A stretch of 64,000 nucleotides of DNA from Buttiauxella massiliensis (GTDB taxonomy: Bacteria > Pseudomonadota > Gammaproteobacteria > Enterobacterales > Enterobacteriaceae), in NCBI RefSeq assembly GCF_902500225.1, contig NZ_LR722652.1, positions 62,001 through 126,000 of the forward strand. Direction: 5' to 3'. How positions within the stretch are numbered: position 1 is the first letter of the stretch; every line of letters starts with the position of its first letter. Both the position numbers and the translations under genes were made by a program. The notes under the pieces were generated by a model. The model saw nothing but the letters and a program-made list of their open reading frames with translations. It ran no database searches and was not told the origin of the DNA. Positions 10,010-40,986 of this stretch are shown one piece after another.

Positions 10010-10033
10010 ACATAAACTTATATAGGTCTGCTT

Positions 10034-12260: not shown

Positions 12261-12279
12261 CAATCACTTTCGATTTAAG

Positions 12280-12314: not shown

Positions 12315-12468
12315 CGTCTCAACACGCCCAAAAACCACAAGCACTTGAATAATATAATCAAATTCTTATTAAGGAATATTTATCAGACATTGATCACGAA
12401 AGTGAATAATGATCTTTGCTCTCAATTCAAAACATAACGAAAATAAACAAAAGAAAACGGAGGTTGAG

Positions 12469-13740: not shown

Positions 13741-13749
13741 GGAACCACT

Positions 13750-14214: not shown

Positions 14215-14237
14215 GCATAATAAGACGGAGATACCCT

Positions 14238-14522: not shown

Positions 14523-14526
14523 AGCC

Positions 14527-15906
14527 ATGTTTAGCGAAATCATGCGTTACATCCTCGACCTTGGTCCCACCGTTATGCTGCCGGTAGTGATCATCATCTT
14601 CTCGAAACTGCTGGGAATGAAACTTGGGGACTGCTTTAAATCCGGCCTGCATATAGGTATCGGTTTTGTTGGCATCGGGTTGGTGATTGGTCTGATGCTC
14701 GATTCTATTGGGCCTGCGGCAAAGGCTATGGCCGAACAATTTCAAATAAACCTTCACGTTGTCGATGTGGGCTGGCCTGGTTCATCGCCAATGACATGGG
14801 CATCGCAAATCGCGTTGGTCGCTATTCCCATTGCCATTGCGGTTAACGTGTTAATGCTTGTCACCCGTATGACGCGTGTGGTGAACGTTGATATCTGGAA
14901 TATCTGGCATATGACTTTCACCGGTGCGCTGGTGCATCTTGCGACAGGATCTTACTGGCTAGGGATTCTAGGTGTTGTGATTCATGCTGCGTTCGTTTAC
15001 AAGCTCGGTGATTGGTTTGCCAAGGATACGCGAGATTACTTTGAGCTTGATGGTATCGCCATTCCACATGGCTCCTCGGCCTATCTGGGGCCAATTGCGG
15101 TACTGGTCGATACCATCATTGAAAAAATCCCAGGCCTGAACCGTATTCATTTCAGCGCGGACGATATCCAAAAGCGATTCGGTCCATTCGGCGAGCCAGT
15201 TACAGTCGGCTTTATTATGGGGATTGTGATTGGTGTGCTGGCGGGTTATGACGCTAAAGGTGTATTGCAACTGGCAGTGAAAACAGCAGCGGTTATGCTG
15301 CTTATGCCACGCGTGATCAAACCTATTATGGATGGTTTAACCCCCATCGCGAAGCACGCCAGGAAACGCCTGCAAGCCAAATTTGGTAGCCAGGAGTTTT
15401 TGATTGGTTTAGACCCGGCGCTGCTGCTCGGCCATACCTCTGTCGTTTCAGCAAGCCTGATCTTTATCCCGCTGACAATCCTTATTGCAGTGTTGGTTCC
15501 AGGAAATCAGGTCTTGCCATTTGGTGACCTGGCAACCATCGGTTTCTTTGTCGCTATGGCAGTCGCAGTGCATCAGGGAAACCTGTTCCGCACGCTGATT
15601 TCTGGCTCCATCATCATGGCTATCACTCTGTGGATTGCCACGCAAACCATCGGTCTTCATACGCAACTTGCAGCAAATGCTGGCGCGCTGAAAGCGGGAG
15701 GCATGGTGGCCTCAATGGATCAGGGCGGCTCGCCAATTACCTGGCTGCTTATCCAACTGCTGACCTGGCAAAACATAGTCGGATTCTGCGTGATTGGTGC
15801 AATTTACTTCACTGGCGTACTGCTCACCTGGCGCCGTGCACGCAATTTTGTGGCTCAGGAGAAGGCTCTGCTTTCTGAGAACAAACCAGCCAGTTCCGCT
15901 TTGTAA
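14527..15906 (+). CDS. gatC: galactitol PTS permease EIIC component GatC
   Basis: The 459-residue integral membrane permease is highly similar to E. coli GatC (about 451). The family motif DGIAIPHGSSAYLGPIAVLV is present (residues about 176-195), and about ten to twelve helices are evident. It imports galactitol with concomitant phosphorylation by GatB. The frame is intact, unlike the altered gatC reported in some E. coli K-12 strains. A short GC hairpin follows before gatD. Confidence 0.92.
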   Translation: MFSEIMRYILDLGPTVMLPVVIIIFSKLLGMKLGDCFKSGLHIGIGFVGIGLVIGLMLDSIGPAAKAMAEQFQINLHVVDVGWPGSSPMTWASQIALVAIPIAIAVNVLMLVTRMTRVVNVDIWNIWHMTFTGALVHLATGSYWLGILGVVIHAAFVYKLGDWFAKDTRDYFELDGIAIPHGSSAYLGPIAVLVDTIIEKIPGLNRIHFSADDIQKRFGPFGEPVTVGFIMGIVIGVLAGYDAKGVLQLAVKTAAVMLLMPRVIKPIMDGLTPIAKHARKRLQAKFGSQEFLIGLDPALLLGHTSVVSASLIFIPLTILIAVLVPGNQVLPFGDLATIGFFVAMAVAVHQGNLFRTLISGSIIMAITLWIATQTIGLHTQLAANAGALKAGGMVASMDQGGSPITWLLIQLLTWQNIVGFCVIGAIYFTGVLLTWRRARNFVAQEKALLSENKPASSAL

Positions 15907-15912
15907 ACCTTC

Positions 15913-15930
15913 GGGGGGCCGCGGCTCCCC
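15913..15930 (+). terminator. GC-rich intercistronic hairpin between gatC and gatD
   Basis: GGGGGGCCGCGGCTCCCC can fold into an 8-bp stem with a tiny central loop, 6 bp after the gatC stop codon. No U tract follows. A role in mRNA stability or partial attenuation between permease and dehydrogenase is more likely than full termination. Confidence 0.5.
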
Positions 15931-15951
15931 ACTTCCTTTCTGGAGTTCATT

Positions 15952-16995
15952 ATGAAATCAGTGGTTATCCATGCTGAGGGCGAGATACGCGTTGAAGAAC
16001 AGCCAATACCTCACCTTCATGAAGATGACGAAGTGCTAGTACGTATTCATTGGTCAGGATTGTGCGGCTCTGACATTCCACGTGTGTTCCACAATGGCGC
16101 ACATTTTTACCCAATAACGCTCGGTCATGAATTCAGCGGTATCGTGGAGCAATGTGGTAATGGCATAGAAGATTTACAGCCCGGTGATGCGGTAGCCTGC
16201 GTGCCGTTGCTGCCCTGTTTTAAATGCCCTGAATGCCAACGCAGTTATTTCTCGCTTTGTAAAAACTACTCTTTTGTCGGATCGCGCAGCGACGGTGGAA
16301 ATGCCGAGTTTATCGTCATGAAACGCGCAAATATATTCCCACTGCCGAAAGGTATGACGCTTGCGGACGGCGCTTTCCTTGAACCCATTACGGTGGGTCT
16401 ACACGCCTTTCATTTGGTTAACGGCTGTGAAGGCAAAAATGTGGTGGTGATTGGGGCAGGAACTATTGGTCTGCTGGCTTTACAGTGTGCTGCCGCATTG
16501 GGCGCGCGATCGGTAACCGCCATTGATATTAATCAGGAAAAGCTAGATCTCGCTTTACAACTTGGCGCAACTCAAGCATTTAACAGCAAGGAGAAGAGTG
16601 CTGCCGAAATTCGTGAACTGATGCGGGAAATGCGTTTTGATCAATTGGTGCTGGAAACGGCTGGCGCGCCACAAACTGTTGAGCTGGCAATTGATATAGC
16701 CGGGCCACGCGCGCAACTTGCCCTGGTGGGAACGCTGCATAACGATCTCAATCTGCCTTCAGCATTGTTTGGGCAAATCCTGCGTAAAGAAATGAGCATT
16801 ACCGGCAGTTGGATGAACTATTCCGGGCCGTGGCCAGGAGAAGAATGGCGAACAGCCGCACGCTTGCTGGCTGAGAAAAAAATTAAGCTTGAACCACTCA
16901 TCGCGCACGTTGGCGAGCCAGAAAGCTACGCTGCCGCAGTGAAGGCTTTAGGTGGAAAACCCATGAATGGCAAAATCATGCTGAAGCTCGCATGA
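15952..16995 (+). CDS. gatD: galactitol-1-phosphate 5-dehydrogenase GatD
   Basis: The 347-residue zinc-dependent medium-chain dehydrogenase closely resembles E. coli GatD (346). Catalytic zinc ligands lie in GLCGSDIPRVF (Cys) and TLGHEFSG (His/Glu). The structural zinc cysteines lie in PCFKCPECQRSYFSLC. The NAD-binding Rossmann motif is VVIGAGTIGLLALQ. It oxidises galactitol-1-phosphate to tagatose-6-phosphate. The tagatose-6-phosphate then needs a kinase to give the bisphosphate; a general phosphofructokinase or one of the PfkB kinases here could do it. Confidence 0.93.
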   Translation: MKSVVIHAEGEIRVEEQPIPHLHEDDEVLVRIHWSGLCGSDIPRVFHNGAHFYPITLGHEFSGIVEQCGNGIEDLQPGDAVACVPLLPCFKCPECQRSYFSLCKNYSFVGSRSDGGNAEFIVMKRANIFPLPKGMTLADGAFLEPITVGLHAFHLVNGCEGKNVVVIGAGTIGLLALQCAAALGARSVTAIDINQEKLDLALQLGATQAFNSKEKSAAEIRELMREMRFDQLVLETAGAPQTVELAIDIAGPRAQLALVGTLHNDLNLPSALFGQILRKEMSITGSWMNYSGPWPGEEWRTAARLLAEKKIKLEPLIAHVGEPESYAAAVKALGGKPMNGKIMLKLA

Positions 16996-17000
16996 TTTTA

Positions 17001-17029
17001 GGGCGGAGAATGCTCGCGCTAATCCGCCC
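17001..17029 (+). terminator. hairpin after gatD
   Basis: A 7-bp stem (GGGCGGA / TCCGCCC) encloses a 15-nt loop, just after the gatD stop codon. The following sequence is CAATCATTTTCG, with a weak T run. It probably ends or attenuates the gatZABCD transcript before gatR. Confidence 0.5.
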
Positions 17030-17133
17030 AATCATTTTCGAGCCATGACTCACACATTATTTCGAAATTCAGCGTTCCTCTTTCATATCCCTTTCGTTTA
17101 CACTGAGTGGAGTTAATTATCAGGCAAATCAAG

Positions 17134-17907
17134 ATGAACTCCTTTGAAAGACGCAACAAAATAGTCGACATAGTCAATTCTCAAGGCAGTGCGCTGGTAC
17201 TCGATCTTTCGAATTCTTTTGGGATCTCGGAAGTTACGATCCGCGCTGATCTGCGCATGCTGGAAGAAAAAGGGTTAGTCACACGATTCCATGGCGGGGC
17301 TGCCCGCCCAGGTAGTTATCTGATGGATGCTGAAAACCAAGAAGTTATTCTGGAAGACCGCTACCAACTCGCTAAAGATCCCAAAAAGCGTATAGCAGAT
17401 GCCGCCGTTAACATGGTTGATGACGGTATGACGGTCATACTCGACAGCGGCAGCACCACACTACTTATTGCCGAAGCTCTACTGAAAAAATCCAATATCA
17501 CCGTCATCACCAACAGTCTTCCAGCTGCGTTTGCACTTTCGGAAAATCAAGATATTACACTGGTCGTATGCGGCGGCACTGTACGCCATAAAACACACTC
17601 CATGCATGGAACACTTGCAGAGCATTCGTTTCAAGGTATCAGTGCCGACGTAATGTTCGTGGGTGCGGACGGTATGGATATGACTAACGGCATCACAACA
17701 TTTAATGAAGGTTATTCTATCAGCGCCGTCATGGCTGCAGCGGCTCATCGAGTTGTCGCCGTACTGGATGCGACCAAATTCAATCGTCGCGGATTTAACC
17801 AGGTACTGCCTCTTGAGCAGATCAACTGTGTGATTACCGATGAAAGTATTCGCGTAGAAGACAAAAAAGCGCTGGAGAAAAGCCAGGTTGAAGTAGTGAT
17901 TGTTTAG
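17134..17907 (+). CDS. gatR: galactitol operon repressor GatR (DeoR family), intact
   Basis: The 257-residue DeoR-family regulator has an N-terminal winged helix (MNSFERRNKIVDIVNSQGSA; LSNSFGISEVTIRADLRMLE). The C-terminal sugar-phosphate sensor (about 75-235) has the canonical ILDSGSTTLLIAEAL loop. The ATG at 17134 is chosen because MNSFERRNKI matches E. coli GatR; an in-frame GTG-type start at 17107 would add nine residues. It is the last gene of the cluster. In E. coli K-12 gatR is known to be disrupted by an insertion; here it is full length, so the gat genes should be inducible. Confidence 0.9.
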   Translation: MNSFERRNKIVDIVNSQGSALVLDLSNSFGISEVTIRADLRMLEEKGLVTRFHGGAARPGSYLMDAENQEVILEDRYQLAKDPKKRIADAAVNMVDDGMTVILDSGSTTLLIAEALLKKSNITVITNSLPAAFALSENQDITLVVCGGTVRHKTHSMHGTLAEHSFQGISADVMFVGADGMDMTNGITTFNEGYSISAVMAAAAHRVVAVLDATKFNRRGFNQVLPLEQINCVITDESIRVEDKKALEKSQVEVVIV

Positions 17908-23271: not shown

Positions 23272-23911
23272 CTGTCTCTTGGTCATCTCTGTGTGAGTCG
23301 CGAGACAGTTCCGTTCACCCGATGTTCCGTGTTTCATATAGCCACTGTACCGGTGAACGTCTTAGGGTGGCCGCCGTCACCACCCTAAGAACCCGGACTC
23401 CCGGCAAATCAATCGCCGCAAGCGGTAAACCTCCATTTTGCCTCCGTGTCAGGGTCGGTTGCGATTCGTTCCCGACGATCGCGCCCTCCAGCCGTTCCCG
23501 ACGGCTGGACCCTGCCACCTGGAGTCAAAATGGAGGCGATTGAAGCCGGAACCAAAGGTCAACGTCAAAGGCTAAAAACCACACTGAGCCGGTTTTGACC
23601 TTGTTCCCGGTATAAATTGCCCCAGTTTTCTCCATAAGTCAGGGTGGCGCCGTCGGGAACGGCGCCAGTGAGCGATCGTCGGGAACGAGTCGCGAACGAC
23701 CGTGATGTTGGGGATAAGCTGGGGTTTACCGCGCAGCGGCAATTTAATCACCGGGCGACGGGGTCGCCAGGGGGATGTCGTTATCCCACTGGCACGTTCA
23801 CCGTTTGCAGGAATGAAAGAGATAACTGAACGCTCGGGTGAACGGAAAATCAACGAGGCTCAAAGATCTCACCCTGACAAAATGCCCGGGTGAGTTGTGA
23901 CTAAGAGACAA
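23272..23911. repeat. giant imperfect palindrome (about 640 bp) with transposon-like ends
   Basis: The gap between dolP and the convergent regulator gene is almost entirely one inverted repeat centred near 23577. Paired arms share this centre: 23309-23322 with 23834-23847 (14 of 14), 23351-23360 with 23794-23803, 23415-23431 with 23723-23740 (imperfect), 23461-23482 with 23672-23693, 23488-23508 with 23646-23666, and 23546-23562 with 23595-23610. Four local hairpins have TCCCG loops, or CGGGA in the mirror copies. The outer ends CTGTCTCTTGGTCA and, reverse-complemented, TTGTCTCTTAGTCA resemble the IS50 inside end (IS4 group). No coding frame is credible. A MITE-like element is the best guess. 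Confidence 0.75.
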
Positions 23912-23931: not shown

Positions 23932-25842
23932 CTAAAACCGACTCAAACAATCCATTGCCACCGCTTTAAACTCCTCAAAACTCTTACTATCGCGCAAACG
24001 CGGCATCGCCCTTTCACGCAGAAACGTGACAAACAGATCGTAAATCGCCATCGCTTCTTCGTACTCGCTTTTACTGATAGCAAGCAAGAAGATGACATGC
24101 GCCGTCTCATCTCCCCAGCGAATACCTTGTGGTGCAAGCACTGTGTACACCACGGTTTTGTTCGCCATCAGCCCCAATGAGTGAGGCAGTGCAATCCCCT
24201 CGCCCAATACGGTGCTGACGATAGCTTCACGCTCAACCACTGAAGGGTAAAAATCGGCCGCTACATAGCCTTCTCGTTCAAGCTGCTGGCAAAGCATGCT
24301 GAACAACTCCTGCTGAGTCATCGGCTCATCAACCACCCGGAAATGGCTGGCATCAAAGAATTTTTCCAGCATGTATGGGCGTGTGCGATCCACCAGCACC
24401 AGCTTGCCCAACTGTTCAAGTTGGTACTCTGTCGGGAATGGGGCCACCACCACAGTAGGCTTTTGTTTATCGCTAATGCGCGCCGTGGAAATAACAAAAT
24501 CCTCTTCCACGTCGTCGAGCTGTTCATAATCGCGCAGGGAAATGATCCGCGTGACCTCAATTTGAGGGTATTTACGCAACAGCATCGCCTGAATCATGCG
24601 TACCGTGGAGTTCCCGGTATCGCAAACCAGCAGCACGCGCGGATGGCGCTGATAACCAATGTTGTAGTGCCGCTCAAGTCCCACCCCAATATGTAGCACC
24701 AGGAAACCAATTTCGTTTTCGCTGATGACATATGGCGTGTATTTCCCCCAGCTCGACACCGCCGCAAGCGTCATGTCATAAGCCATCGGGTAGTGCTGTT
24801 TAATATTGCCTAGCAGGGGATTAGGAATATTTATCTGATAGCGCACACGGGTAATCATAGTTTTGATATGCGTGAGCAAATCAGCATGTAGCTGCTTATC
24901 GGTCAGTAGGTTGTAGTTATAGTTGTTGTTGATAAAGCTCAGAATATAATTCACCAGCGCTTCATCGTCGTCAGCACTGATAGCGCTCGCCGCCACCGCT
25001 TGCACCTGGCGCGAGGCAATATGAACTTGCAGCCATTGCTCTTCCGCCTCGGAAAGCGCTTTACCAGCAAGCTCCTGTAACAGTACGGTGATTTGTTTTG
25101 CGGCTTCACGCACCGCTTCGTCTACATTGTCAGCGCTAAATTCCGGCAGCGGGTAACCCTCACTGATACGGCGAACCGCAACGGCGCAATATAAACGGAT
25201 AAACTGTTCACCTTCGTCAGTCAGGCGGATACGGCAGCGCGTAAAACAATTGTGCAGTTCTGCCGCCAGTTGTTCTGGCACTCCTGCATTGAGCACTTCT
25301 TCAGTCAGCAGTGGATTTTCGCAATCTTCCTGCGTGAGTTTCCAAAGCAGATCGGTCAGACAGGCACGCACCGACATTTCACTGCCAAACAGCTTCATGC
25401 CGTGGCGCGGGCGGGTTTCAATCGTCAAGTTGTAGCGTGCCAGCCAATCACGAACCTCAGCCATATCGCTTTGCAATGTCGCACGGCTAACAAACCACTC
25501 TTCGGCCAGATCTTCGAGTTTTAAAGAGAAGGCTGACGTCAGAAAACGCACCACTAAATAGTGCACGCGTTCCGGGGAATTACGGGGAATACGCAGCTGA
25601 CGTGAAGGCTGCTGCTGGAGTTCTTCATACAGCGCTGGGTCTGCAATATTGAGCTGATAACCCGCTCCGCGATTCAGGACAAACTGCGCGCCATGCCCGA
25701 CCATCAGCGCATTTAAAGCGGTAATATCCGCGCGTACAGTGCGGGTAGAAACGGATAATCGCCGTGCCAGTTCATCCTGGAGCAGCGTCTCGTTTTGCAG
25801 CATTTCAAACAGTTGGGCCAGACGTTGGTTTGGGAATCTCAC
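23932..25842 (-). CDS. BglG/MtlR-type regulator with HTH, two PRD, EIIB-like and EIIA-like domains
   Basis: The 636-residue multidomain PTS-controlled transcription factor has an N-terminal helix-turn-helix (about 5-45; LQDELARRLSVSTRTVRADI) and a second winged helix (about 88-145). PRD1 spans about 185-285 and PRD2 about 295-395 (His325 and His384). An EIIB-like domain has Cys407 in VLLVCDTGNST. A C-terminal EIIA domain has His554 in EGIALPHSLG. Such proteins are DNA-binding activators whose activity depends on PTS phosphorylation. It is the last gene of the ten-gene operon, 15 bp after the lactonase gene, so it is likely autoregulated and specific for this operon. Confidence 0.88.
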   Translation of the reverse strand: MRFPNQRLAQLFEMLQNETLLQDELARRLSVSTRTVRADITALNALMVGHGAQFVLNRGAGYQLNIADPALYEELQQQPSRQLRIPRNSPERVHYLVVRFLTSAFSLKLEDLAEEWFVSRATLQSDMAEVRDWLARYNLTIETRPRHGMKLFGSEMSVRACLTDLLWKLTQEDCENPLLTEEVLNAGVPEQLAAELHNCFTRCRIRLTDEGEQFIRLYCAVAVRRISEGYPLPEFSADNVDEAVREAAKQITVLLQELAGKALSEAEEQWLQVHIASRQVQAVAASAISADDDEALVNYILSFINNNYNYNLLTDKQLHADLLTHIKTMITRVRYQINIPNPLLGNIKQHYPMAYDMTLAAVSSWGKYTPYVISENEIGFLVLHIGVGLERHYNIGYQRHPRVLLVCDTGNSTVRMIQAMLLRKYPQIEVTRIISLRDYEQLDDVEEDFVISTARISDKQKPTVVVAPFPTEYQLEQLGKLVLVDRTRPYMLEKFFDASHFRVVDEPMTQQELFSMLCQQLEREGYVAADFYPSVVEREAIVSTVLGEGIALPHSLGLMANKTVVYTVLAPQGIRWGDETAHVIFLLAISKSEYEEAMAIYDLFVTFLRERAMPRLRDSKSFEEFKAVAMDCLSRF

Positions 25843-25857
25843 GGCCGTTTCCTTTCG

Positions 25858-26964
25858 TTAATCGGGTGCAGCACCTGTCAAAACCATCTGTGACGGGCTG
25901 CCAACCGCAATGTAATCCTCAACAAAATTCAGTTTTCCAGTCGGCTGCGCCACGCTAAAACGCGCGATGTTATCGCTGCGCTGATTCATTACGTACAGAT
26001 ACTTTTCATTATGGCCGAGCGTTAGCGTGCGCGGGTAATCACCCCGCGTCCAGACGTGCTCCACAAGTTCCAGCCTGCCATTCGCAGCAACGCTAAAATG
26101 GCCGATGCTGTTGTGCAAACGGTTCGCAACATACAGCTGTTTCCCGTCTTTGCTCAACACCAGGCCTGACGCAAAGCTAGTGCCCTTGAACCCCTTAGGT
26201 AGCGAGGAAATGCTCTCGCCCTCGGTTAGTGTTCCTTTGGCTACATCAAGTTGGTAGTGGGTAAGCGTAGAAGATTCTTCGTTGATCAACCATAAGCCAT
26301 CACCCTTTGGCGTGAATACAAAATGGCGTGGCCCTGCACCTTGCGATGAGGCGTCAATATAGGGAGGATCGTTTGGCGTGAGCTCGCCGTGGGTTTTATC
26401 GAAACGATATTGATAGATCCGATCGAGTCCAAGATCGGTGGTAAAGATGAATTTACCACTCGGATCGGTGGCGATCATATGTGCATGCGGGCCACTGTGG
26501 CCGCTGGCCGCAAAACTGCCTTCCACGGCGGCTTCTGGTTTTTTGGCGCCCGCTGGCCCTGCATCCTGTTGAATATCCGTGGCCTGGCCCAGGCTGCCAT
26601 CGCCCTTGACTGGCAATACGGCAACGGAACCGCTGCCGTAATTCGCCACCAGCAAATGCCGCTCGTCCGGCGTAAGCGTGAGATAGACCGCCCCAGCACC
26701 GCCCGATGAAACCTGATTCAGTTCAGTAAGATTGCCATCATCCCCAACACGCAACGCTGCAATCACGCCGTTTTCAGTTTCGCTTGCCACATACAGCGTT
26801 TTACCCTCTTTCGAGGCGGTGAGCTGCGCGGCATTCGGCAGTTCACTGACCAGCGTTTTGCGGGTCAGTGCACCGGTTTCGGCATCGACATTAAAACGGT
26901 AAATCCCTTCACCATTTGGGTTGTAGGTACCGACCCAGGCGAATTGCGTTTGTGTTGCGGGCAT
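25858..26964 (-). CDS. lactonase-family seven-bladed beta-propeller protein
   Basis: The 368-residue protein of the 6-phosphogluconolactonase-like (lactonase, YbhE/Pgl) family starts with TQFAWVGTYNPNGEGIYRF. Repeated blade motifs follow (LTPDERHLLVANYGSGSVAV; SKDGKQLYVANRLHNSIGHF; YVMNQRSDNIARF). It has no signal peptide, so it is cytoplasmic. In this operon, with a deacylase, an ammonia lyase and an aldolase, it probably opens a sugar-acid lactone or its phosphate to the free acid. It lies 25 bp after the aldolase gene. Confidence 0.8.
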   Translation of the reverse strand: MPATQTQFAWVGTYNPNGEGIYRFNVDAETGALTRKTLVSELPNAAQLTASKEGKTLYVASETENGVIAALRVGDDGNLTELNQVSSGGAGAVYLTLTPDERHLLVANYGSGSVAVLPVKGDGSLGQATDIQQDAGPAGAKKPEAAVEGSFAASGHSGPHAHMIATDPSGKFIFTTDLGLDRIYQYRFDKTHGELTPNDPPYIDASSQGAGPRHFVFTPKGDGLWLINEESSTLTHYQLDVAKGTLTEGESISSLPKGFKGTSFASGLVLSKDGKQLYVANRLHNSIGHFSVAANGRLELVEHVWTRGDYPRTLTLGHNEKYLYVMNQRSDNIARFSVAQPTGKLNFVEDYIAVGSPSQMVLTGAAPD

Positions 26965-26989
26965 TGATGATCCTCATGGTTATCAGGTT

Positions 26990-27730
26990 TTAGCCAACCA
27001 ACTTCTTCGTCATATCCAGCAAAGTGCGCACATCTTCCGGACGTGTATTGCCGCTCGCTTTATCAATAATTGAGCTGTAAATATGCGGAATGATCTTACT
27101 CACTCCCGTATCCAGTGCGATCTTCAGGATTTCTTCGTAGTTCTCAAGATCGATCCCGCCAGTCGGTTCCAGCCAGAAATCGTGTTTTGCACAAGCCAGT
27201 GCCACCGCATGGAACTCATCACGGTATTTCAGGCCACCCATCGGGAAATATTTGATTGAGCTGCCGCCCATATCTTTGAGCAACGCGATAGCGGTATCTA
27301 CCGGCACAATACCGTCAGAAGAAGCTGAACTCAGTGGGCCGGTGGAAATTTTTACCATCCCGACCATTCCCGTTGGAGAAACCAGGCCATTGACCACGCT
27401 TTCATTTTGCCCAAGCAACGCACGACTTGCACCCACGCCGGTAAACACCTGGTTTACGTGCTGCGGTTGCACCTGGCGGGAGATTTCACTCACCATTGCC
27501 GACTGGTTTGGGTCACCTGCGCCAAGGCCAACAGAAAGCGCATTTTCGATCAATGCCGCATATTCACGCATATCCGCTACGGCAGTTGCTACATCAGGGT
27601 AATTTTTAGAAAGCACGCCGACCAGAACATGGCCTTCTGCAGCGTCATAAATCTCTTTCGCGTTATCTTTCGAACCCGCCAGCACATTCAGGCATACACG
27701 GTCACGATAAAAATTCGGGGTCAATTTCAT
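26990..27730 (-). CDS. DgaF-like 2-dehydro-3-deoxy-6-phosphogluconate aldolase (KDGP_aldolase family)
   Basis: The 246-residue protein belongs to the family of Salmonella DgaF, distinct from Eda. Family stretches are NVLAGSKDNAKEIYDAAEGH, GLVSPTGMVGMVKISTGPLS and SSIKYFPMGGLKYRDEF. The Lys in IKYFPMGG is the probable Schiff-base residue by analogy with class I KDPG aldolases. The expected reaction is KDGP to pyruvate and glyceraldehyde-3-phosphate. Its start overlaps the upstream DgaE-like stop by 4 nt (ATGA), so the two are translationally coupled, as the two-step pathway would need. Confidence 0.85.
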   Translation of the reverse strand: MKLTPNFYRDRVCLNVLAGSKDNAKEIYDAAEGHVLVGVLSKNYPDVATAVADMREYAALIENALSVGLGAGDPNQSAMVSEISRQVQPQHVNQVFTGVGASRALLGQNESVVNGLVSPTGMVGMVKISTGPLSSASSDGIVPVDTAIALLKDMGGSSIKYFPMGGLKYRDEFHAVALACAKHDFWLEPTGGIDLENYEEILKIALDTGVSKIIPHIYSSIIDKASGNTRPEDVRTLLDMTKKLVG

Positions 27731-28845
27731 GCCTGTTTCTCCTTGCTGACCAATGCCTTAATGCATTGATAGATAATCTCTAACTGTTGCGAGCTGACGC
27801 TACGCACATCGGCTTCGATAATCCCTTCGTTGGCTTTGTAGCCACGGAAGAAAATCGCATATTCGCCCTGTTTCAGCGCGCTCACCAACTCGACGGTGCT
27901 GACGCCAATCGCCGCTTCATCAAACTTAATTTCAGTACGGGCGATGTCGCGACCGGCTGCATCCCACACCACGCGGGCTGTGATCCCCTCAAGGGTGTTG
28001 AGGCTCTCGATAAACGGCGTCATTTTTTCGACCATCTGTGCGCCGCTTTCTTTGGCTGCCGTTAAATAGTGTTCGATAGCGCTGGTCAGGCCAAGAATAC
28101 CTTCTTTGCCGACTTTCATGGCGCGGCCAATGCCGCCTGTTTGCAGCTTCACCCACTCAACATACTGCGCTTTGCCAATTACCAGGCCGCTGGTTGGCCC
28201 TTCAATGGCTTTTGCGCCGCTGTAAATCACCAGGTCAGCACCTGCGCGGTAGTAGCACTGCAAATCTTCTTCCGCTGCTGCATCAACAATCAGCGGCAGG
28301 TTATGTTTGCGCGCCACGACAGCAGCCTGCTCTACGCTAAGCATGCTTTTCTGAACCGAGTGATGCGATTTGATATACAAAATGGCGGCAGTGCGTGGGG
28401 AGATGGCAGCAGCTAATTGTTCGGCAGAACATTCGTTGGCATAGCCCGCTTCCACCACTTTGCCACCACCGAGATAAACCATCGTGCCCACCGGCGCGCC
28501 GAAGTTCACGTTGTGGCCTTTCGGCAACACAATTTCGTTGTTCTCAAGTGGCGTGCCGTGCAGGTTTTCAATCAGCCAGGCGTTGTCCTTCACAAGCACT
28601 GCCGCCACAGATTGCGCGATACCCGCAGATGCGCAAGACACTACTGTTGCGGCTTCAACATCCAGCAGCCTGGCGATGTACTCCCCGGTTTTGTTCACCA
28701 GGTCTTTCATCTCAAAATAGTGATTCATACCGTTGGTCACGGCTTCAACCACTTCCGGGCGCGGGGTAGAAACACCGAGTGCCGTCATGCGGCCAGAGGC
28801 ATTAATGACTTGTTTTAAATTATATTTCTCATAAATCGAAGACAT
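27727..28845 (-). CDS. DgaE-like PLP-dependent ammonia lyase (SelA-related fold)
   Basis: The 372-residue PLP enzyme starts at the ATG at 28845 (MSSIYEKYNLKQVINASGRM); an upstream frame extension to 28977 runs into the previous gene and is not conserved. Motifs are MTALGVSTPRPEV, SCASAGIAQS and VIYSGAKAIEGPTSGLVIG, which holds the PLP-binding Lys in SGAK. The family includes Salmonella DgaE, D-glucosaminate-6-phosphate ammonia-lyase, which yields KDGP and ammonia. It resembles SelA only in fold. The 17-nt overlap with the amidohydrolase gene shows tight coupling. The substrate is therefore probably a 2-amino-2-deoxy sugar acid phosphate. Confidence 0.85.
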   Translation of the reverse strand: MSSIYEKYNLKQVINASGRMTALGVSTPRPEVVEAVTNGMNHYFEMKDLVNKTGEYIARLLDVEAATVVSCASAGIAQSVAAVLVKDNAWLIENLHGTPLENNEIVLPKGHNVNFGAPVGTMVYLGGGKVVEAGYANECSAEQLAAAISPRTAAILYIKSHHSVQKSMLSVEQAAVVARKHNLPLIVDAAAEEDLQCYYRAGADLVIYSGAKAIEGPTSGLVIGKAQYVEWVKLQTGGIGRAMKVGKEGILGLTSAIEHYLTAAKESGAQMVEKMTPFIESLNTLEGITARVVWDAAGRDIARTEIKFDEAAIGVSTVELVSALKQGEYAIFFRGYKANEGIIEADVRSVSSQQLEIIYQCIKALVSKEKQA

Positions 28846-29962
28846 GTTCTTGTTTCCCTTGTTCGGTCGTAAACCATTTCCCGGAGCGAACGGCGGCAAG
28901 TGCCACCAGCAGTTGTTCGCCCTGGAGCGTCTGATTTTCGGAATCGGTAAATACCGTCGGCTGGCGGCGTTGGGCAAAAATCGTCAGGTCGCCATCAAGC
29001 CCCACAGACAAACGCCCTTTATTCGTCAGGCGTAAACCTTGCGCGGCATGCGTGGTAACGCAATCAATCACTTGTGGCAGCGACATGCCAATGGAGAGGA
29101 ATTTGGACATCACCACGCCGAGGCTATGTACCGGGCCGTTAATGCGGTTGCGGCAGTAAATATCGGAGCTGATGGTGTGTGGCAGAATTCCTTTGCTGAT
29201 GGCGATTTTCGCTACTTCGAAGCTGAAACTGGCAGAACCGTGGCCCACATCAAGGCGCACGCCACGCTGAATGGCGCTTGAAATTGATGCCCGCAATTCA
29301 CCGGCAGATGTCAAAATGCGGTTCGGTTTGCCGTTGTAGCAGTGGGTAATGATGTCACCGCTTGTCAGCAAATCGGCAATTTCATCAAGGTCAGGCGGGT
29401 TATTACCGATGTGTACCATCAGCGGTAATTTACCGTTTTCGCGCTGGATTTCTTTCGCGCGCTCCAGCGGTTTAATGCCGTTGGCACCCACTACGCTGCT
29501 GCTCATGCGCGCTTTGATGCCAACGATAAAACCAGGATGGCGTTTCACCGCATCACGTGCGGCGATTTTGTCGATATTCGTCATATCCGACAGTTCGTTC
29601 TGCGCAATCAGTCCAACGCGAGAGATGTTCAGTAACGCATAAACATCCGTCGTCGCTTTGCGAGTTAGCTCGTAAAACTCGTCGATATCGTCAGCGCCTG
29701 TGCTCCCGGCATCAACAACAGTCGTCACGCCTGTATTAATGCCGATACTGTCCGGGTCATCGTGATAGATGGGGGATTTTTGGTAACAGTGGACGTGGGA
29801 ATCAATCCAGCCTGCGCTGACATAATATTCACCATTGAGCTGGCGTTCTTCTTGCGCCTCACCCGTGATTTCGCCAAGTGCGGCAATTTTTCCATCCTTC
29901 AGCGCGATGTCGATAACGGTGTCATCCACCAGACACGCGTTGCGCAGGATTAAGTCGAACAT
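28829..29962 (-). CDS. amidohydrolase/deacetylase of the EF0837/AHA_3915 type (COG3964)
   Basis: The 377-residue metal-dependent amidohydrolase is often misannotated as dihydroorotase. The binuclear metal site is visible as SAGWIDSHVHCYQKSP (HxH), a Lys in FIVGIKARMSS (bridging), MVHIGNNPPD and THCYNGK (His residues), and DVGHGSASFSF (Asp). Members of COG3964 have been reported to hydrolyse acetylated small acids in vitro, with unclear physiology. Genes of this type often neighbour DgaE/DgaF-like pairs. Here it likely removes an acyl group from an amino-sugar acid before ammonia elimination. It follows a 117-bp gap that contains repeat copy A. Confidence 0.82.
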   Translation of the reverse strand: MFDLILRNACLVDDTVIDIALKDGKIAALGEITGEAQEERQLNGEYYVSAGWIDSHVHCYQKSPIYHDDPDSIGINTGVTTVVDAGSTGADDIDEFYELTRKATTDVYALLNISRVGLIAQNELSDMTNIDKIAARDAVKRHPGFIVGIKARMSSSVVGANGIKPLERAKEIQRENGKLPLMVHIGNNPPDLDEIADLLTSGDIITHCYNGKPNRILTSAGELRASISSAIQRGVRLDVGHGSASFSFEVAKIAISKGILPHTISSDIYCRNRINGPVHSLGVVMSKFLSIGMSLPQVIDCVTTHAAQGLRLTNKGRLSVGLDGDLTIFAQRRQPTVFTDSENQTLQGEQLLVALAAVRSGKWFTTEQGKQEHVFDL

Positions 29963-29995
29963 GGTTTTCTCCTTCAGAAAGATCCCGTAGCCGAT

Positions 29996-30066
29996 TATTA
30001 GGGGAAGTTCAGGGAATTGGTTCCCGGAGGGATGCCAAGCCCTGAAATCGCCCCGGGTATCTCCAG
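29996..30066. repeat. 71-bp structured repeat, copy A (inside the operon)
   Basis: In plus orientation it has TTAGGGGAA, then a stem TTCAGGG / CCCTGAA (30008-30014 with 30040-30046) around GGTTCCCGGAGGGATGCC, ending GGGTATCTCC. Copy B at 32849-32917 is the same element in the opposite orientation, with the stem bases changed on both sides. Copy A sits in the only long gap of the ten-gene operon, between DUF4310 and the amidohydrolase gene. Boundaries are good to a few bases. Confidence 0.75.
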
Positions 30067-30079
30067 CCCCCGCTTCGGC

Positions 30080-30721
30080 CTACAAAGCAATCGGGAAGAA
30101 TGCTCCAAAAAGCATCGCGCCAAGAATCGCGCCACCGGTAATCGGCTTGTTCCACAGATAAAACAGCAGAGAACCAATCAGCGAGCCAATACCAATCGGA
30201 ATAGAAGCGGTCATTGCGCTCAGGATAATCAACGGGCCAAGGAAGCGGCCGGATGCGTTACCCGCGCCCATCATGACGTCTGCCCCGTAGGTTGAGTTGC
30301 TCTGGTTGACGGTGAATTTACGCGCCAGAATAATCACATAACCAATCGCCAGGCCAATCACCAGCCCCGTCACCAGCGATGCCGCAAAGTTCGCAACCGG
30401 GAAGATAATGCCCGCGCCGAGTAACAGCGCTGGAACGCCAAGACCTACGCCGGTTTGAATCGCCCCGCCGATATCCAGAATCCCGACCAGCGAACCTTCA
30501 ATGATGCGGGCAAACAGAAAGCTGGCACCAAACGCGGCGACTGCGCCATACACACCGGTATCAATCCCGGCACGCAGCATGGAAACAAACGCCACTTCGT
30601 TGAATGCCCCAATGCCGTAGAGGTAATACATGTGTGTCCCGGCGAACACGCCGGAAGAAAGCAGGCCAACGAAAATCGGGAATGACCAGTCGGCGTACCA
30701 AAAACCTTTATTCGTTTCCAT
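30080..30721 (-). CDS. DUF4310 family membrane protein (putative transporter subunit)
   Basis: The 213-residue integral membrane protein has about six hydrophobic segments, many Gly/Ala-rich (FVGLLSSGVFAGTHMYYLYG; GIIFPVANFAASLVTGLVIG). It ends in FGAFFPIAL. ATG 30721 is chosen because GGGAG lies 6 nt upstream; a GTG one codon earlier is possible. DUF4310 genes occur next to DUF4311, DUF4312 and SFCGS genes, and the set is not functionally characterised to my knowledge. It probably forms a permease with DUF4311, by analogy with the two membrane subunits (IIC/IID) of mannose-type PTS; that analogy is inference. Confidence 0.8.
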   Translation of the reverse strand: METNKGFWYADWSFPIFVGLLSSGVFAGTHMYYLYGIGAFNEVAFVSMLRAGIDTGVYGAVAAFGASFLFARIIEGSLVGILDIGGAIQTGVGLGVPALLLGAGIIFPVANFAASLVTGLVIGLAIGYVIILARKFTVNQSNSTYGADVMMGAGNASGRFLGPLIILSAMTASIPIGIGSLIGSLLFYLWNKPITGGAILGAMLFGAFFPIAL

Positions 30722-30732
30722 CACAGGCTCCC

Positions 30733-31509
30733 TTATTTTCCGCTCATCGAGTTATGGATCAGACTGAGCCAGTCCGGCACGGTCAGATGGAAGGATTCGA
30801 TCATTTTCATATCGAAGCCACGGAAGAAGCCACTCAGCACAAACAGCGCGATAATCGCCACCATCATCACTTTAGTGACGTGGTTCCAGCCGCTCTCTTC
30901 CACGCCTTTACCAATCAGGATGCCAAGCACCAGACCAGGTACGGCGTTGCCCATAATCAGTTGCGCACAGCCACCGAAAATAGTGGCCCAGAAGCCTGAT
31001 TTTTTACCGGCATCAATCGCCGCCAGCCAGAAAATCACTGGCATGATGATGGTCACCAGCAAGTTCGCCGCAGGGACCAGCACTTTTACTGCGGTAACCT
31101 GTAGTGCAGCGGGAACGGCAGACGCGGTGGTGTTAAGGAAGGCCACTACAATCATGCCGATGATGCCGCACGCGACAGCCATTTTGCGTGGATCGTGCAG
31201 GGTCTCAGCCACGTTGCGATTTTTCATCATCAACGCGGCGGCACCCCAGTGTGGGATAATTCGGTGGTCAACGTCCTGAGTAAAAGCACCCGCAGCAACG
31301 GACGACGCCCAGGCGTTGAAGAAGAAACCTAAACCAAATGAGAAGTGTGAAGCCGGGTCGCCTTCGCAGGAGTTCAGCTCGCCGAGGGTACGAAAAGCGC
31401 CCATACCTTGCGTGGTCGGCGCATGAAACATACGTGCAGCCCCGGCGCCCACTCCAACGCCAACCAGACCGCCGATGATTAGCGATTTTATTAATATAAT
31501 TAAGAACAT
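30733..31509 (-). CDS. DUF4311 family membrane protein (putative transporter subunit)
   Basis: The 258-residue integral membrane protein has about six to seven helices. A conserved-looking loop, GELNSCEGDPASHFSFGLGF, followed by FFNAWASSVAAGAF, contains a Cys, several charged residues and a His. That composition is unusual between membrane segments and suggests a substrate or cofactor site. A second loop reads DVDHRIIPHWGAAALMMKNR. It lies 11 bp before DUF4310 and 23 bp after DUF4312. No known transporter signature is visible; a transport role is inferred from context. Confidence 0.8.
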   Translation of the reverse strand: MFLIILIKSLIIGGLVGVGVGAGAARMFHAPTTQGMGAFRTLGELNSCEGDPASHFSFGLGFFFNAWASSVAAGAFTQDVDHRIIPHWGAAALMMKNRNVAETLHDPRKMAVACGIIGMIVVAFLNTTASAVPAALQVTAVKVLVPAANLLVTIIMPVIFWLAAIDAGKKSGFWATIFGGCAQLIMGNAVPGLVLGILIGKGVEESGWNHVTKVMMVAIIALFVLSGFFRGFDMKMIESFHLTVPDWLSLIHNSMSGK

Positions 31510-31532
31510 CTGTCTGTCCTTTCTGTGTGATT

Positions 31533-31829
31533 TTATTGGGGGATGAAGTCTACTTTGTCCATATTGATGGCCGTCACACTGACCGAAACATCCAGCTCCA
31601 CGCTGAACATCTGTTTTTCACGTTTCAGAAAGAAGAACAAAAAAGCCTCTTTCTTGACCTGCACTCGCGCCTGAACAACCTGCACATCCTGTGGCTCAAT
31701 ACGCAGTAAAATGTGGGGAGATGACTTCATAACCGAGCCCTGAACATGATTCAGGGCATCAGCAAAGGCCTTGGCTTTAGTGTCGCCACGACCTTTCACT
31801 CTCACCGTTTCGGAGAAGTGTTCTTTCAT
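31533..31829 (-). CDS. DUF4312 family small soluble protein
   Basis: The 98-residue protein starts MKEHFSETVRVKGRGDTKAK and contains the segment VMKSSPHILLRIEPQDVQVV. A hydrophobic but short stretch, EAFLFFFLKREKQMFSVEL, is probably a buried strand rather than a membrane helix. It is always seen in this four-gene context in the families I know, and no biochemical role is known to me. It lies 2 bp after the SFCGS gene, so stoichiometric translation with it is likely. Confidence 0.75.
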   Translation of the reverse strand: MKEHFSETVRVKGRGDTKAKAFADALNHVQGSVMKSSPHILLRIEPQDVQVVQARVQVKKEAFLFFFLKREKQMFSVELDVSVSVTAINMDKVDFIPQ

Positions 31830-31831
31830 GC

Positions 31832-32194
31832 TTAGTTACCGTACTTCTTAGCCCAGGCCAGAACTAAGCGCTCGCCCAGTTCTTCTTTATCCATAAAGCC
31901 GAAGCCCAGCACGTTGTTGCCTTCGTTGATGGCGGTGACGCCCTCTTCAACTGAACGCATACCGTATTTGGCTTTATAACCATGTTTGGTTTGCGCGGTG
32001 ATGGCACCTGCGCCGCCACTGCCACAGAAAGAGATGCCGAACGTGGCATTTTCAGCTTTCATCACATCGCCAAGTTTCATATCAGCGGCAACACCAGGAA
32101 TAACCACGGCACGGCCGCCTGCTTTCTCAATCCCTGCTGCCACTTTTTGGCCTTTACCCAGGCGGTCGCCGATCACTACGGTAATTTGTTCCAT
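31832..32194 (-). CDS. glycine-rich SFCGS family protein (possible EIIB-like phosphocarrier)
   Basis: The 120-residue cytoplasmic protein starts at ATG 32194 (MEQITVVIGDRLGKGQKVAA) after a GGAG ribosome site; 21 extra in-frame codons upstream are not conserved. The family motif GISFCGSGGAGAITAQTKHG carries Cys57. A Rossmann-like start with a glycine-rich loop and one invariant-looking Cys recalls PTS EIIB domains, which carry phosphate on Cys. This is only an analogy, and no EIIB homology can be shown by eye. It follows the PRD gene by 17 bp. Confidence 0.78.
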   Translation of the reverse strand: MEQITVVIGDRLGKGQKVAAGIEKAGGRAVVIPGVAADMKLGDVMKAENATFGISFCGSGGAGAITAQTKHGYKAKYGMRSVEEGVTAINEGNNVLGFGFMDKEELGERLVLAWAKKYGN

Positions 32195-32211
32195 CTGAAT
32201 CTCCTGATTAT

Positions 32212-32547
32212 TCAAAGATTGTCTTTCGCGACTTCGAAATGCACTGACAGCAACCACGCCTCTTCAACCGGCAGATTGCCAAACTGTTCGACGACTGCTT
32301 TTGCCATTTCCAGAGAGTCATCAGAAATTTCCTCAAACAGGCTTTCTTCAACTTCTGGTAACGGTTCGCCGGTCAGTGACCGGTGCGCCATGGCGCGAAC
32401 GTGGGATGTCAGCATCTGCTCCTGAACTGCGTTTGGCGTAATGTTTCGGCCTTCCAGCAGCGTCCTGATAAACGCCAACACTTGCTCCGTAAGTTGTGTG
32501 GCGTCGGTACTTCCGGCGTCATTAACCTTTACCGCTCCGTTATTCAC
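32212..32547 (-). CDS. single-PRD-domain small protein (first gene of the operon)
   Basis: The 111-residue protein consists mainly of one PTS regulation domain. Two histidines sit where PRD phosphorylation sites are found: His49 in MLTSHVRAMAHRSL and His103 in EEAWLLSVHFEVAK. The start is taken as GTG 32547, with GAGG 8 nt upstream; an in-frame ATG at 32622 would extend through the predicted operator and is rejected. It has no DNA- or RNA-binding domain, so it may be a phosphorylation-state sensor or a subunit of the transporter. Confidence 0.72.
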   Translation of the reverse strand: MNNGAVKVNDAGSTDATQLTEQVLAFIRTLLEGRNITPNAVQEQMLTSHVRAMAHRSLTGEPLPEVEESLFEEISDDSLEMAKAVVEQFGNLPVEEAWLLSVHFEVAKDNL

Positions 32548-32615
32548 ACTGCATACCTCGTTTACTGATATGGCTCTAAGGTATCGGCGAGGGTTAAAGG
32601 TTTGTAGCGAGTTGT

Positions 32616-32635
32616 TTTCCACTTTGAAGTGGAAA
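32616..32635. promoter_or_regulatory. candidate operator palindrome of the ten-gene operon
   Basis: A perfect palindrome, TTTCCACTT-TG-AAGTGGAAA, has 9-bp arms and lies 69 bp upstream of the GTG start of the PRD gene. Its position and symmetry suit a dimeric activator such as the operon-encoded BglG/MtlR-type regulator. Confidence 0.6.
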
Positions 32636-32697: not shown

Positions 32698-32717
32698 AAT
32701 GTGATTACAGTCACGGA
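32698..32717. promoter_or_regulatory. candidate CRP site upstream of the ten-gene operon
   Basis: TGTGATTACAGTCACG at 32700-32715 matches the CRP consensus TGTGA-N6-TCACA except for the last base. It lies about 63 bp upstream of the operator palindrome on the promoter side, as expected for a catabolite-controlled carbohydrate operon. Confidence 0.65.
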
Positions 32718-37076: not shown

Positions 37077-38036
37077 TTACATTCCTGAAGTCAAAGAGAT
37101 AAACAGCGGTAACGACAGGATAGAGAGCACGGAGCTAAGCAGCAAGACAGCTTCTGCATCCGGCGATTGCACGCCGAAACGGTTGCCGAATACCACGCCG
37201 AAGAAGCCCGCAGACAGCGCAATCATCAGGATCGCGGTGATGGCAACCGGCCCAGTCAGACCCAACGCCAGCACGATACCCCATGCGATGAACGGTTGAA
37301 TCAGCAGTTTGGTCACGGTTGCAACGCAAACCACGGTGTTGATTTTCAGCTTACGGGCAGAAAGGATCACACCGGTCAGGAACAGTGCCGCAGCGGTCGC
37401 AGACATACCCAACGGTTTGATTGCCGACAGCAGCAAGTCAGGCATACGAATACCAATCGCCGATAAAATCACACCCAGCAGCGGGCCCCAGACGATAGGT
37501 TTTTTCAGCGAACGCCACATCAGAACAGGCAGCATTGCGAGGGTTGAACCCACTGCTTCGCCAGCTGCACGCGCTTTTTCACGCTCCAAAATCATCAGGC
37601 AGAACGGTGTCATCAACACGGAACCACAAGCGATAGAAACCGCAACGGAAAGAGAGGTTGCAGAACCTTCGCCCAGAACGCTGCCCAGAATTGGCAGGCC
37701 AAGCGCCGCATAGTTTGGTAACGCAACAGTCAATGTCAGTACAGCCGCATCCTGCGGAGATTTTTTGAATACTTTGGTCGCCAGGAAATAAATCGCAGCG
37801 TAGGTAATCCACATCGCCAGAACCAGCACCACACTCATCGGTGACTGTTTGACGATACCTGCCCACGGCGTTTGAACCGTTGCGCTAAACAGCGCGGCTG
37901 GCAGGGCGAAATCCATTACAAAGATATTGAGCAGGGAAACATTTTTGTTATCGACCATCTTTGCTTTGCCAGCGAAAAAGCCGAGCAGCATGATGACAAA
38001 AATGGGCGCAAGCGCATGAACAATTACGTAAGTCAT
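37077..38036 (-). CDS. mdcF: malonate transporter of the auxin efflux carrier (AEC) family, MdcF
   Basis: The 319-residue protein has about ten membrane helices in two halves. The AEC-type PNYAALGLPILGSVLGEG motif lies in the first half and FFGVVFGNRFGVQSPDAEAV in the second. Klebsiella MdcF of the same length is the proposed malonate carrier. It follows a hairpin in the 133-bp gap after mdcE, so its expression may be reduced relative to the enzyme subunits. Confidence 0.88.
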   Translation of the reverse strand: MTYVIVHALAPIFVIMLLGFFAGKAKMVDNKNVSLLNIFVMDFALPAALFSATVQTPWAGIVKQSPMSVVLVLAMWITYAAIYFLATKVFKKSPQDAAVLTLTVALPNYAALGLPILGSVLGEGSATSLSVAVSIACGSVLMTPFCLMILEREKARAAGEAVGSTLAMLPVLMWRSLKKPIVWGPLLGVILSAIGIRMPDLLLSAIKPLGMSATAAALFLTGVILSARKLKINTVVCVATVTKLLIQPFIAWGIVLALGLTGPVAITAILMIALSAGFFGVVFGNRFGVQSPDAEAVLLLSSVLSILSLPLFISLTSGM

Positions 38037-40101: not shown

Positions 40102-40986
40102 TTAAAAGTGTGAATGTTGCGGTAATGGGGTAATCGTCGCGTTATCGTAGGCGATGCGGTCAATCAGCAGCGTGGCGGCCAGCAAATCTGCGGCCCCACC
40201 CGGTGAGGCATTGAGTGCCAGCATCTCTTTATCGAGCCAGGCGAGCGCCGCGCGGCCTTGAGATGTTGCCGTACCACCAGCAACCAGTACGCTACGCGCG
40301 CCGTTTTGCATCGTTTCCAGCCCTTCAAGGCCTGCACGTGAAAGCACGCAGGTATCGCTAAGCGAGGTCATAATGGCCATCAGTGCATCAAGCCGCGCCT
40401 GCGGTTCCGTTGCTCCGTTCTGGCGACTGCGGCGCAGTTGCGGCAACGCCAGTTGCATGATGTGCGGGAAGCCAAGTTGCGCCTCTTCGCGAGCGCCGGG
40501 AACCTGATAACGCCGTGTTGCGAGTAGCCCCTTACTGAAAACTTTTGGTGCTGAACTGTCTGGCAGGCTGGCAAGTTTTGCGGCACTTGCCGCAATTTCT
40601 TCACTGCTGCCTTCAAGGCCGTGCATCGCGGCGGCAGAGACCAACAAACCGAGCGCCCAGATAGCGCCCCGGTGAGTATTCACTCCGCCTGTAGCCATCA
40701 TCATCTGCGCCTCACCTTCACGACCTAAGCGGCCGACGAGTTGGCGCAGAGCGATATCTGCCGGGCGCTGCCAGCTTTGCAATGCCAGCGCATGAAACGT
40801 CGGGGAAAGGCTGTGCGCAGAGCGCTCCATCAATTCCAACGTCAGGTCGTGATGTGCACCACTTCCCCGACTGTCCACAAGACCAGGTTTCGGGCTTAAG
40901 CGTGCTTCTGTGATCAAGCTTTGGGTGGCAACCCTTGCAAGCCATGCAGCGCTGCCTTCACTCCCAATCTGTGGCTGTAGTTTCAT
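40102..40986 (-). CDS. mdcB: triphosphoribosyl-dephospho-CoA synthase MdcB
   Basis: The 294-residue protein is of the CitG/MdcB family, which makes 2'-(5''-triphosphoribosyl)-3'-dephospho-CoA from ATP and dephospho-CoA. Conserved segments are LSPKPGLVDSRGSGAHHDL and GGVNTHRGAIWALGLLVSAA. Stop and start overlap by one base with mdcA (TAATG). Confidence 0.93.
   Translation of the reverse strand: MKLQPQIGSEGSAAWLARVATQSLITEARLSPKPGLVDSRGSGAHHDLTLELMERSAHSLSPTFHALALQSWQRPADIALRQLVGRLGREGEAQMMMATGGVNTHRGAIWALGLLVSAAAMHGLEGSSEEIAASAAKLASLPDSSAPKVFSKGLLATRRYQVPGAREEAQLGFPHIMQLALPQLRRSRQNGATEPQARLDALMAIMTSLSDTCVLSRAGLEGLETMQNGARSVLVAGGTATSQGRAALAWLDKEMLALNASPGGAADLLAATLLIDRIAYDNATITPLPQHSHF

Follow-up and report, generated by a model that had tools for sequence, protein, structure and literature searches.

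A conserved ten-gene operon in Buttiauxella massiliensis

The 64,000-nucleotide stretch of the Buttiauxella massiliensis genome analysed here (the window; contig NZ_LR722652.1, positions 62,001 to 126,000) contains ten genes that follow one another on the minus strand from 32622 down to 23932, each assigned by open reading frame (ORF) calls together with NCBIfam and Pfam (Table 1). They encode a small stand-alone protein with a PRD domain, SFCGS, DUF4312, DUF4311 and DUF4310, then an amidohydrolase, a DgaE-like ammonia-lyase, a DgaF-type aldolase and a lactonase, and finally a regulator controlled by the phosphotransferase system (PTS), which we take to be akin to MtlR. When the likely starts are used, 8 of the 9 junctions overlap or are at most 25 bp long, the exception being the 117-bp gap between the DUF4310 and amidohydrolase genes. 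By comparison with K. pneumoniae, the PRD protein more likely starts at GTG 32547 (~111 aa), and the ORF of the DgaE-like protein, which opens with TTG at 28977, is likely to start instead at an ATG near 28845.

The families of the first five proteins, hereafter the module, have previously been catalogued in NCBIfam and Pfam without a function, which agrees with the preliminary description of this DNA, where DUF4310, DUF4311, DUF4312, and SFCGS were said to have none assigned. The neighbourhood EF_0829-EF_0839/AHA_3910-3917 (TIGR03577-03583) comprises the same families, all of which score above the curated cut-offs here and lie adjacent in order; its entries are classed as "hypothetical equivalogs", and the names shown assign neither function nor mechanism. 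A functional account of the module was not found in the titles, abstract beginnings, and passages of the papers listed from an open-licence library. Passages of two studies bear on the neighbourhood: a possible connection of EF0839 with amino-sugar metabolism and with fitness in nutrient medium is mentioned in PMC7701990, and the EF0839/EF2975 promoter is listed as urine-induced in PMC2912369.

Table 1. Genes and regulatory site of the operon, in window coordinates.
Feature	Position	Strand	Assignment
CRP-like operator, upstream of operon	32700..32715		TGTGA-N6-TCACG, 1 mismatch
Stand-alone PRD protein	32212..32622	-	TIGR03582, 130.5 bits; PF00874 below cut-off, E 0.026
SFCGS, 120 aa	31832..32194	-	TIGR03577; predicted RpiB/LacAB fold, invariant Cys57
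DUF4312, 98 aa, soluble	31533..31829	-	TIGR03578/PF14189
DUF4311, 258 aa, polytopic membrane protein	30733..31509	-	TIGR03580/PF14188
DUF4310, 214 aa, polytopic membrane protein	30080..30724	-	TIGR03579/PF14187
Amidohydrolase/deacetylase, EF_0837 family	28829..29962	-	TIGR03583, 559.7 bits
DgaE-like pyridoxal phosphate (PLP) ammonia-lyase	27727..28845	-	TIGR01437, 599.8 bits; NF047797 374.9, cut-off 600
DgaF-type 2-dehydro-3-deoxy-phosphogluconate (KDGP) aldolase	26990..27730	-	NF047796 394.4, cut-off 300; TIGR03581
7-bladed beta-propeller lactonase, optional	25858..26964	-	PF10282, 333 bits
HTH_11-Mga-PRD-EIIA_2 regulator, EIIB-like cysteine C407, H554 in EIIA_2	23932..25842	-	Pfam

Conservation of gene order and co-occurrence

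Conservation was followed in 85 loci, namely the nearest 80 of at least 498 confirmed genome relatives and 5 loci from plasmid records; most of them are close relatives, so that the conservation of order is biased to Enterobacterales. The core order PRD–SFCGS–DUF4312–DUF4311–DUF4310–amidohydrolase–DgaE–DgaF–regulator is kept in 81/85 loci, including one with the regulator split over two ORFs (L084) and one in which the regulator runs off the contig (L091). The exceptions are a contig that stops 29 bp past DgaF (L024), a locus with no regulator within the remaining 1.4 kb of its contig (L050), the E. faecalis operon, in which the regulator is placed first, and an Aeromonas operon (L019), from which an internal deletion has removed most of DUF4310, the amidohydrolase, and DgaE. 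Of the 85 loci, 84 hold all eight genes from PRD through DgaF, 82 hold these plus the regulator, and 48 hold the lactonase. Conservation of the same order across 81 loci argues that the arrangement did not arise by chance and, together with the ORF, NCBIfam, and Pfam assignments and the tight junctions, bears out the compact minus-strand operon of the preliminary description. The neighbourhood survey suggested there placed both DUF4310 and DUF4311 beside the amidohydrolase, DgaE, and DgaF in 84/85 loci and beside the PRD regulator in 82/85, the opposite of an occurrence mostly without sugar-catabolic or PTS genes.

The membrane proteins DUF4311 and DUF4310 occur in an identical set of 69 among 149 genomes of the family (one draw), and SFCGS and DUF4312 in those 69 and in one further genome (G433). 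The latter might pass for a case of SFCGS and DUF4312 without the membrane proteins; it proved to be a decayed remnant instead, in which PRD–SFCGS–DUF4312 is followed by a deletion. A genome with a weak partial match (26.9-28 bits; G496) was left out of the DUF4311 count, and a 49% complete genome in which the genes are fragmented (G420) was included. Across the phylum, DUF4311 is present in 12/398 genomes, all 12 of them within the window's own family. Among 72,556 plasmid records, SFCGS, DUF4311, and DUF4310 were each found in 6, an identical set for all three, the Aeromonas DUF4310 match being 36 residues long. Sub-threshold DUF4311 matches (e.g., G000:C16) were rejected, as they fall in a DjlA-like ORF, read from the sequence; the partial match in G496 is of this kind. 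Outside the family, the operon was also found in Enterococcus, Chromobacterium, Aeromonas, and Bartonella. The DUF4311 of the window is 100% identical to that of B. brennerae and B. gaviniae; a near-identical operon match was absent from 20,395 E. coli records (megablast), and no relatives were found among viral contigs.

Some copies of the operon are damaged or unusually placed. In the remnant of G433 (L137 9529-10554), SFCGS carries an insertion in the glycine loop. The Aeromonas copy, from A. caviae KAM479 (L019 8876-13282), lies in a 4.9 Mb record labelled "plasmid", perhaps a mislabelled chromosome. In E. faecalis IDRL-9065, DgaF reads as two overlapping ORFs, unannotated in the table shown (L017 18501-19243), owing to a frameshift or a sequencing error.

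PTS and regulatory links

A link to the PTS is provided by a Bartonella plasmid (L018), in which the regulator gene is directly followed by one encoding a 671-aa HPr-EI fusion (Pfam) with intact GLHARP and GGATSH motifs. A second Bartonella plasmid (L021) has the same layout, with ptsP after the regulator, by annotation only. We count the fusion in favour of a PTS function, because such a gene would be useful only with a local acceptor of HPr phosphate. Hyphomicrobiales usually carry the nitrogen PTS only, so a plasmid-borne sugar PTS would have to bring EI and HPr along. Behind a glucitol PTS operon on a Rhizobium plasmid there is likewise a ptsP gene, by annotation. In a genome of the same phylum, an ORF with an HPr-like GLHARP motif lies behind a glucitol PTS IIA gene (L104 3034-3543), another PTS operon with, judging by the motif, its own HPr. 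Beside the operon, both Bartonella plasmids carry the type VI secretion genes tssA and tssM (L018 10781-14201; L021 18137-23559; annotation).

The candidate phosphorylation sites of the regulator are strongly conserved when residues are counted over distinct sequences, with rows shorter than 70% of the query dropped: H325 and H384 are kept in 83/83 sequences, and C407 and H554 in 82/83 each, with H274, a histidine of the first PRD, kept in 68/83 only. Upstream of the PRD gene, 34/80 loci carry a CRP-like site with one mismatch or none, versus 0.4 expected from shuffles, a comparison in which the loci share ancestry and hence are not independent. The sites often lie at 150-170 bp (a distance that assumes a 112-aa PRD protein), and their spacers have diverged. 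No such site was seen in three Chromobacterium/Xenophilus and two Budvicia loci, where the best match has 3-4 mismatches. In the window as a whole, CRP-like sites with at most two mismatches are no commoner than chance (24 vs 27.4).

SFCGS and the stand-alone PRD protein

SFCGS is predicted to have the RpiB/LacAB (sugar-phosphate isomerase) fold. It aligns with these proteins at the C-G-S/T-G loop, cysteine included, with 10-23% identity among the top 21 matches listed in the fold search, and C57 is its sole invariant histidine or cysteine (81/81 sequences). The score against PF02502 (RpiB/LacAB isomerase), 13.3 bits, lies under the Pfam cut-off of 24.7, and SFCGS ends at residue 120, short of the C-terminal tail found in RpiB (146 aa in L138). 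In RpiB, the corresponding cysteine is the catalytic base, and the tail holds phosphate-binding arginines. We propose that SFCGS is an EIIB-like phosphocysteine carrier. Alternatively, it could be an RpiB-like proton-shuttling enzyme, e.g., a C2 epimerase or isomerase acting on the incoming sugar acid through Cys57, with DUF4311/DUF4310 still forming a transporter. The fold and the aligned cysteine would suit such an enzyme; the loss of the tail with its arginines would not, nor would the position of the gene, which in the orders seen is grouped with the membrane genes and not the enzyme genes, as yhfU lies beside yhfT in E. coli. We consider the enzyme doubtful, albeit a serious contender.

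A likeness between DRLGKGQ of SFCGS and DRLIHGQ, which holds the phospho-histidine of mannose-type EIIB and is present in ManX, was dismissed: lysine replaces the histidine, 1/60 shuffles was as good as the SFCGS-ManX comparison, and RpiB is preferred in the fold search. Among the 50 matches listed in that search there was no EIIB, and comparison of SFCGS with PDB sequences returned a chance row only (E 0.98).

In the stand-alone PRD protein, H74 and H128 (numbered from 32622) are kept in 80/80 distinct sequences, and we propose that it serves as a phospho-histidine component or sensor of the module. A similar protein, YhfY, is encoded in the E. coli operon yhfZYXW-php-yhfUTS. In hhalign comparisons, the PRD protein matched a single YhfY sequence with 17% probability and eight YhfY sequences with 80-87%, and 0/60 column shuffles were as good; on the YhfY side, the second PRD histidine is not conserved. 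The two operons share the stand-alone PRD protein, a small protein with a conserved cysteine (YhfU/DUF2620), and a membrane protein (YhfT). They differ in that E. coli has a single 434-aa YhfT without profile similarity to DUF4310/4311, other enzymes, and another regulator, YhfZ. A DUF4310-YhfT likeness with a raw BLAST E value of 4e-4, obtained without composition correction, was lost with profiles (41/60 shuffles as good) and is not considered further.

Membrane proteins DUF4311 and DUF4310 and soluble DUF4312

By hydropathy, DUF4311 has five strong hydrophobic segments in 85/85 members and DUF4310 has 4-6 in 84 members. Conserved histidines are H29, H55, H82, H105, and H252 in DUF4311 (72/72 distinct sequences) and H31 in DUF4310 (69/69). 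We propose that DUF4311 is a permease subunit and DUF4310 a second one, and DUF4312 may be an accessory or coupling subunit. Comparison of SFCGS, DUF4312, DUF4310, and DUF4311 with GutA/GutE/GutB gave hhalign probabilities of 0.1-0.3% with 16-18 sequences per profile. Profiles for ManX/Y/Z held few sequences (14-19), and PTS classes beyond the mannose and glucitol types were compared through Pfam only; the best comparison was DUF4310 with ManZ, for which 1/60 shuffles was as good. Profiles of DUF4311 and DUF4310 retrieved only chance rows from PDB sequences. An AlphaFold2 model of DUF4311, built from a shallow 30-row alignment, had a mean predicted local distance difference test score (pLDDT) of 44.5 and was not used further.

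Catabolic enzymes and the substrate

The DgaF-type protein exceeds the cut-off of the KDPG-aldolase equivalog, and the DgaE-like protein falls below that of the D-glucosaminate-6-phosphate lyase equivalog (Table 1). Solved relatives include 3m0z, 3nzr, and 3lm7 for DgaF and, close to the amidohydrolase, 8wzy ("dihydroorotase") and 2ics ("adenine deaminase"). As the amidohydrolase is present in 84/85 loci, a relative of D-glucosaminate with an N-acyl group is the probable substrate; the amidohydrolase is proposed to be an N-deacylase of a (phospho)aminoaldonate, and the lactonase a (6-phospho)aldonolactonase. The relatives of DgaE and DgaF act on 6-phosphates, no kinase is present among the core genes, and intergenic gaps in 83 loci, at most 314 bp, leave no space for one, so that phosphorylation on entry is the simplest solution.

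The D-glucosaminate PTS operon of Salmonella, DgaABCDEF (STM3772-66), has a mannose-family permease and a sigma-54 LevR-like regulator according to the accessible text of PMC4987338, in which the words "deacetylase" and "lactonase" do not appear. Our operon resembles it in the DgaE-like ammonia-lyase, the DgaF aldolase, and PTS control of the regulator. It differs in having five DUF/PRD proteins, an amidohydrolase, an MtlR-like regulator, and a DgaE under the equivalog cut-off. The oxidative chitin pathway of marine bacteria (OngB/OngC/KdgK) follows the same logic in the available passages of PMC9537276 and PMC12017989: the acetyl group of N-acetyl-glucosaminate is removed by OngB, an enzyme most closely related, among characterised proteins, to D-aminoacylases from the amidohydrolase superfamily, and deamination yields 2-keto-3-deoxygluconate (KDG), which shows that this chemistry is workable. 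Cleavage of KDG-6-P is hypothesised there, and, unlike in the scheme favoured below, the pathway relies on a sodium symporter, enzymes of the D-aminoacylase and D-amino acid deaminase families, and phosphorylation at KDG (PMC9537276). The passages available from a paper on chitin use (PMC11653859) do not confirm a route for the oxidised chitin monomer N-acetyl-glucosaminic acid (GlcNAc1A) in Aeromonas.

Neighbouring features

Between a yraP-like gene and the end of the operon, the window contains a 103-nt inverted-repeat pair (74% complementary) and smaller ones (23422-23732), perhaps repetitive extragenic elements. On the other side, genes for a Mem_trans transporter (37077-38036) and a malonate decarboxylase alpha subunit (40986-42641) sit between the operon and a pmbA-like gene (44805-46199). 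A second PTS-rich stretch (8230-17907) encodes a class II aldolase, a PfkB kinase, a fused IIB-IIC, an EIIA-HPr fusion, GatZ/KbaZ, EIIC-GAT, a dehydrogenase, and a DeoR regulator, and resembles a galactitol/tagatose cluster supplemented with a fructose-like IIBC and EIIA-HPr set.

Discussion

Collectively, these results lead us to favour, with some reservation, a PTS-driven permease encoded by the five module genes, which would phosphorylate an N-acylated 2-amino-aldonate on entry. Gene content and order, co-occurrence, the phosphosites of the regulator, the CRP-like site, the predicted SFCGS fold, and the Bartonella HPr-EI gene are all read from sequence, and from them we infer transport, phosphorelay, and substrate. 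The operon would import and degrade an N-acylated 2-amino-2-deoxy-aldonic acid (an N-acyl D-glucosaminate or an epimer). DUF4311 and DUF4310 would form the membrane channel. Phosphate would pass from EI and HPr to an EIIA-like histidine, in the EIIA domain of the regulator or in the small PRD protein, then to Cys57 of SFCGS and on to C6 of the sugar acid during entry. The amidohydrolase would then strip the acyl group and the DgaE-like lyase ammonia, yielding KDGP, which DgaF would cleave into pyruvate and glyceraldehyde-3-phosphate, with the optional lactonase opening a lactone. The PRD/EIIB/EIIA regulator and CRP would switch the operon on. That the operon works like a PTS permease is, in our judgement, somewhat the better bet; we do not place it in a known PTS superfamily. 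Of the new sugar-acid transporter, possibly PTS-linked, put forward in the preliminary description, the link is strengthened by the conserved neighbourhood and by the Bartonella EI-HPr; transport itself is inferred, and kinship of DUF4310/4311 with the mannose- or glucitol-type permeases tested did not emerge at the profile level.

Several observations weigh against the PTS-driven permease. Profiles reveal no resemblance of DUF4310 or DUF4311 to IIC/IID of the glucitol or mannose type, none of the five module proteins has a PTS domain scoring above the Pfam cut-off (PRD lies below it), and DUF4312 offers no candidate phosphosite, having no invariant histidine or cysteine. To our knowledge, the isomerase fold of SFCGS is unlike that of any EIIB, and SFCGS could be an enzyme. 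Being nearly identical, the two Bartonella plasmids count as a single capture of HPr-EI, and the fusion might serve the regulator alone. The E. faecalis operon contains a second PTS IIC and a PfkB kinase. Nor is there support for GlcNAc1A from the cell's own lytic polysaccharide monooxygenases (LPMOs) as the substrate, since LPMO_10 occurs in 14/69 operon-bearing versus 13/80 operon-free genomes; an LPMO_10 gene is absent from the genome of the window.

The missing homology to PTS permeases and the E. faecalis kinase would also fit a secondary (ion-coupled) or binding-dependent transporter formed by DUF4310/4311, with the PTS controlling only expression through the PRD/EIIA regulator: the free sugar acid would enter, a kinase elsewhere in the genome would act on it, and the Bartonella HPr-EI would work the regulator. 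The marine GlcNAc1A pathway, with its sodium symporter and phosphorylation only at KDG, sets a precedent in the accessible part of PMC9537276. However, no kinase belongs to the core order of 81/85 loci, the gaps offer no room for one, and the set of PRD, small protein, and membrane protein recurs in E. coli with another regulator, YhfZ, so that the PRD protein is seemingly not tied to the PRD regulator; we regard such a transporter as unlikely. Even less probable, and indeed very much so, is that the module forms an enzyme complex in the membrane and works on what a different permease delivers. Such a complex would accommodate the soluble, uncharacterised DUF4312 and SFCGS and the separate PTS IIC of E. 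faecalis, yet the core operon lacks another permease gene and constantly includes two polytopic membrane proteins.

Returning to the PTS-driven permease, known PTS permeases fall into a few superfamilies, and the PRD domain has so far been known as a regulatory module. A more speculative and on balance improbable extension is that the module represents an additional evolutionary class of PTS permeases, with an EIIB of RpiB/LacAB fold phosphorylated on the old catalytic cysteine, a free PRD as phospho-histidine carrier, and YhfY-YhfU-YhfT of E. coli as a second branch. If true, this would add a further PTS permease superfamily, carried by 69/149 genomes of the family, and a new route of sugar-acid uptake, with an isomerase fold reused beside or inside a phosphorelay. 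It would also provide testable functions for the PRD protein, DUF4310, DUF4311, DUF4312, and SFCGS, and a clue to the E. coli orphans yhfTUY.

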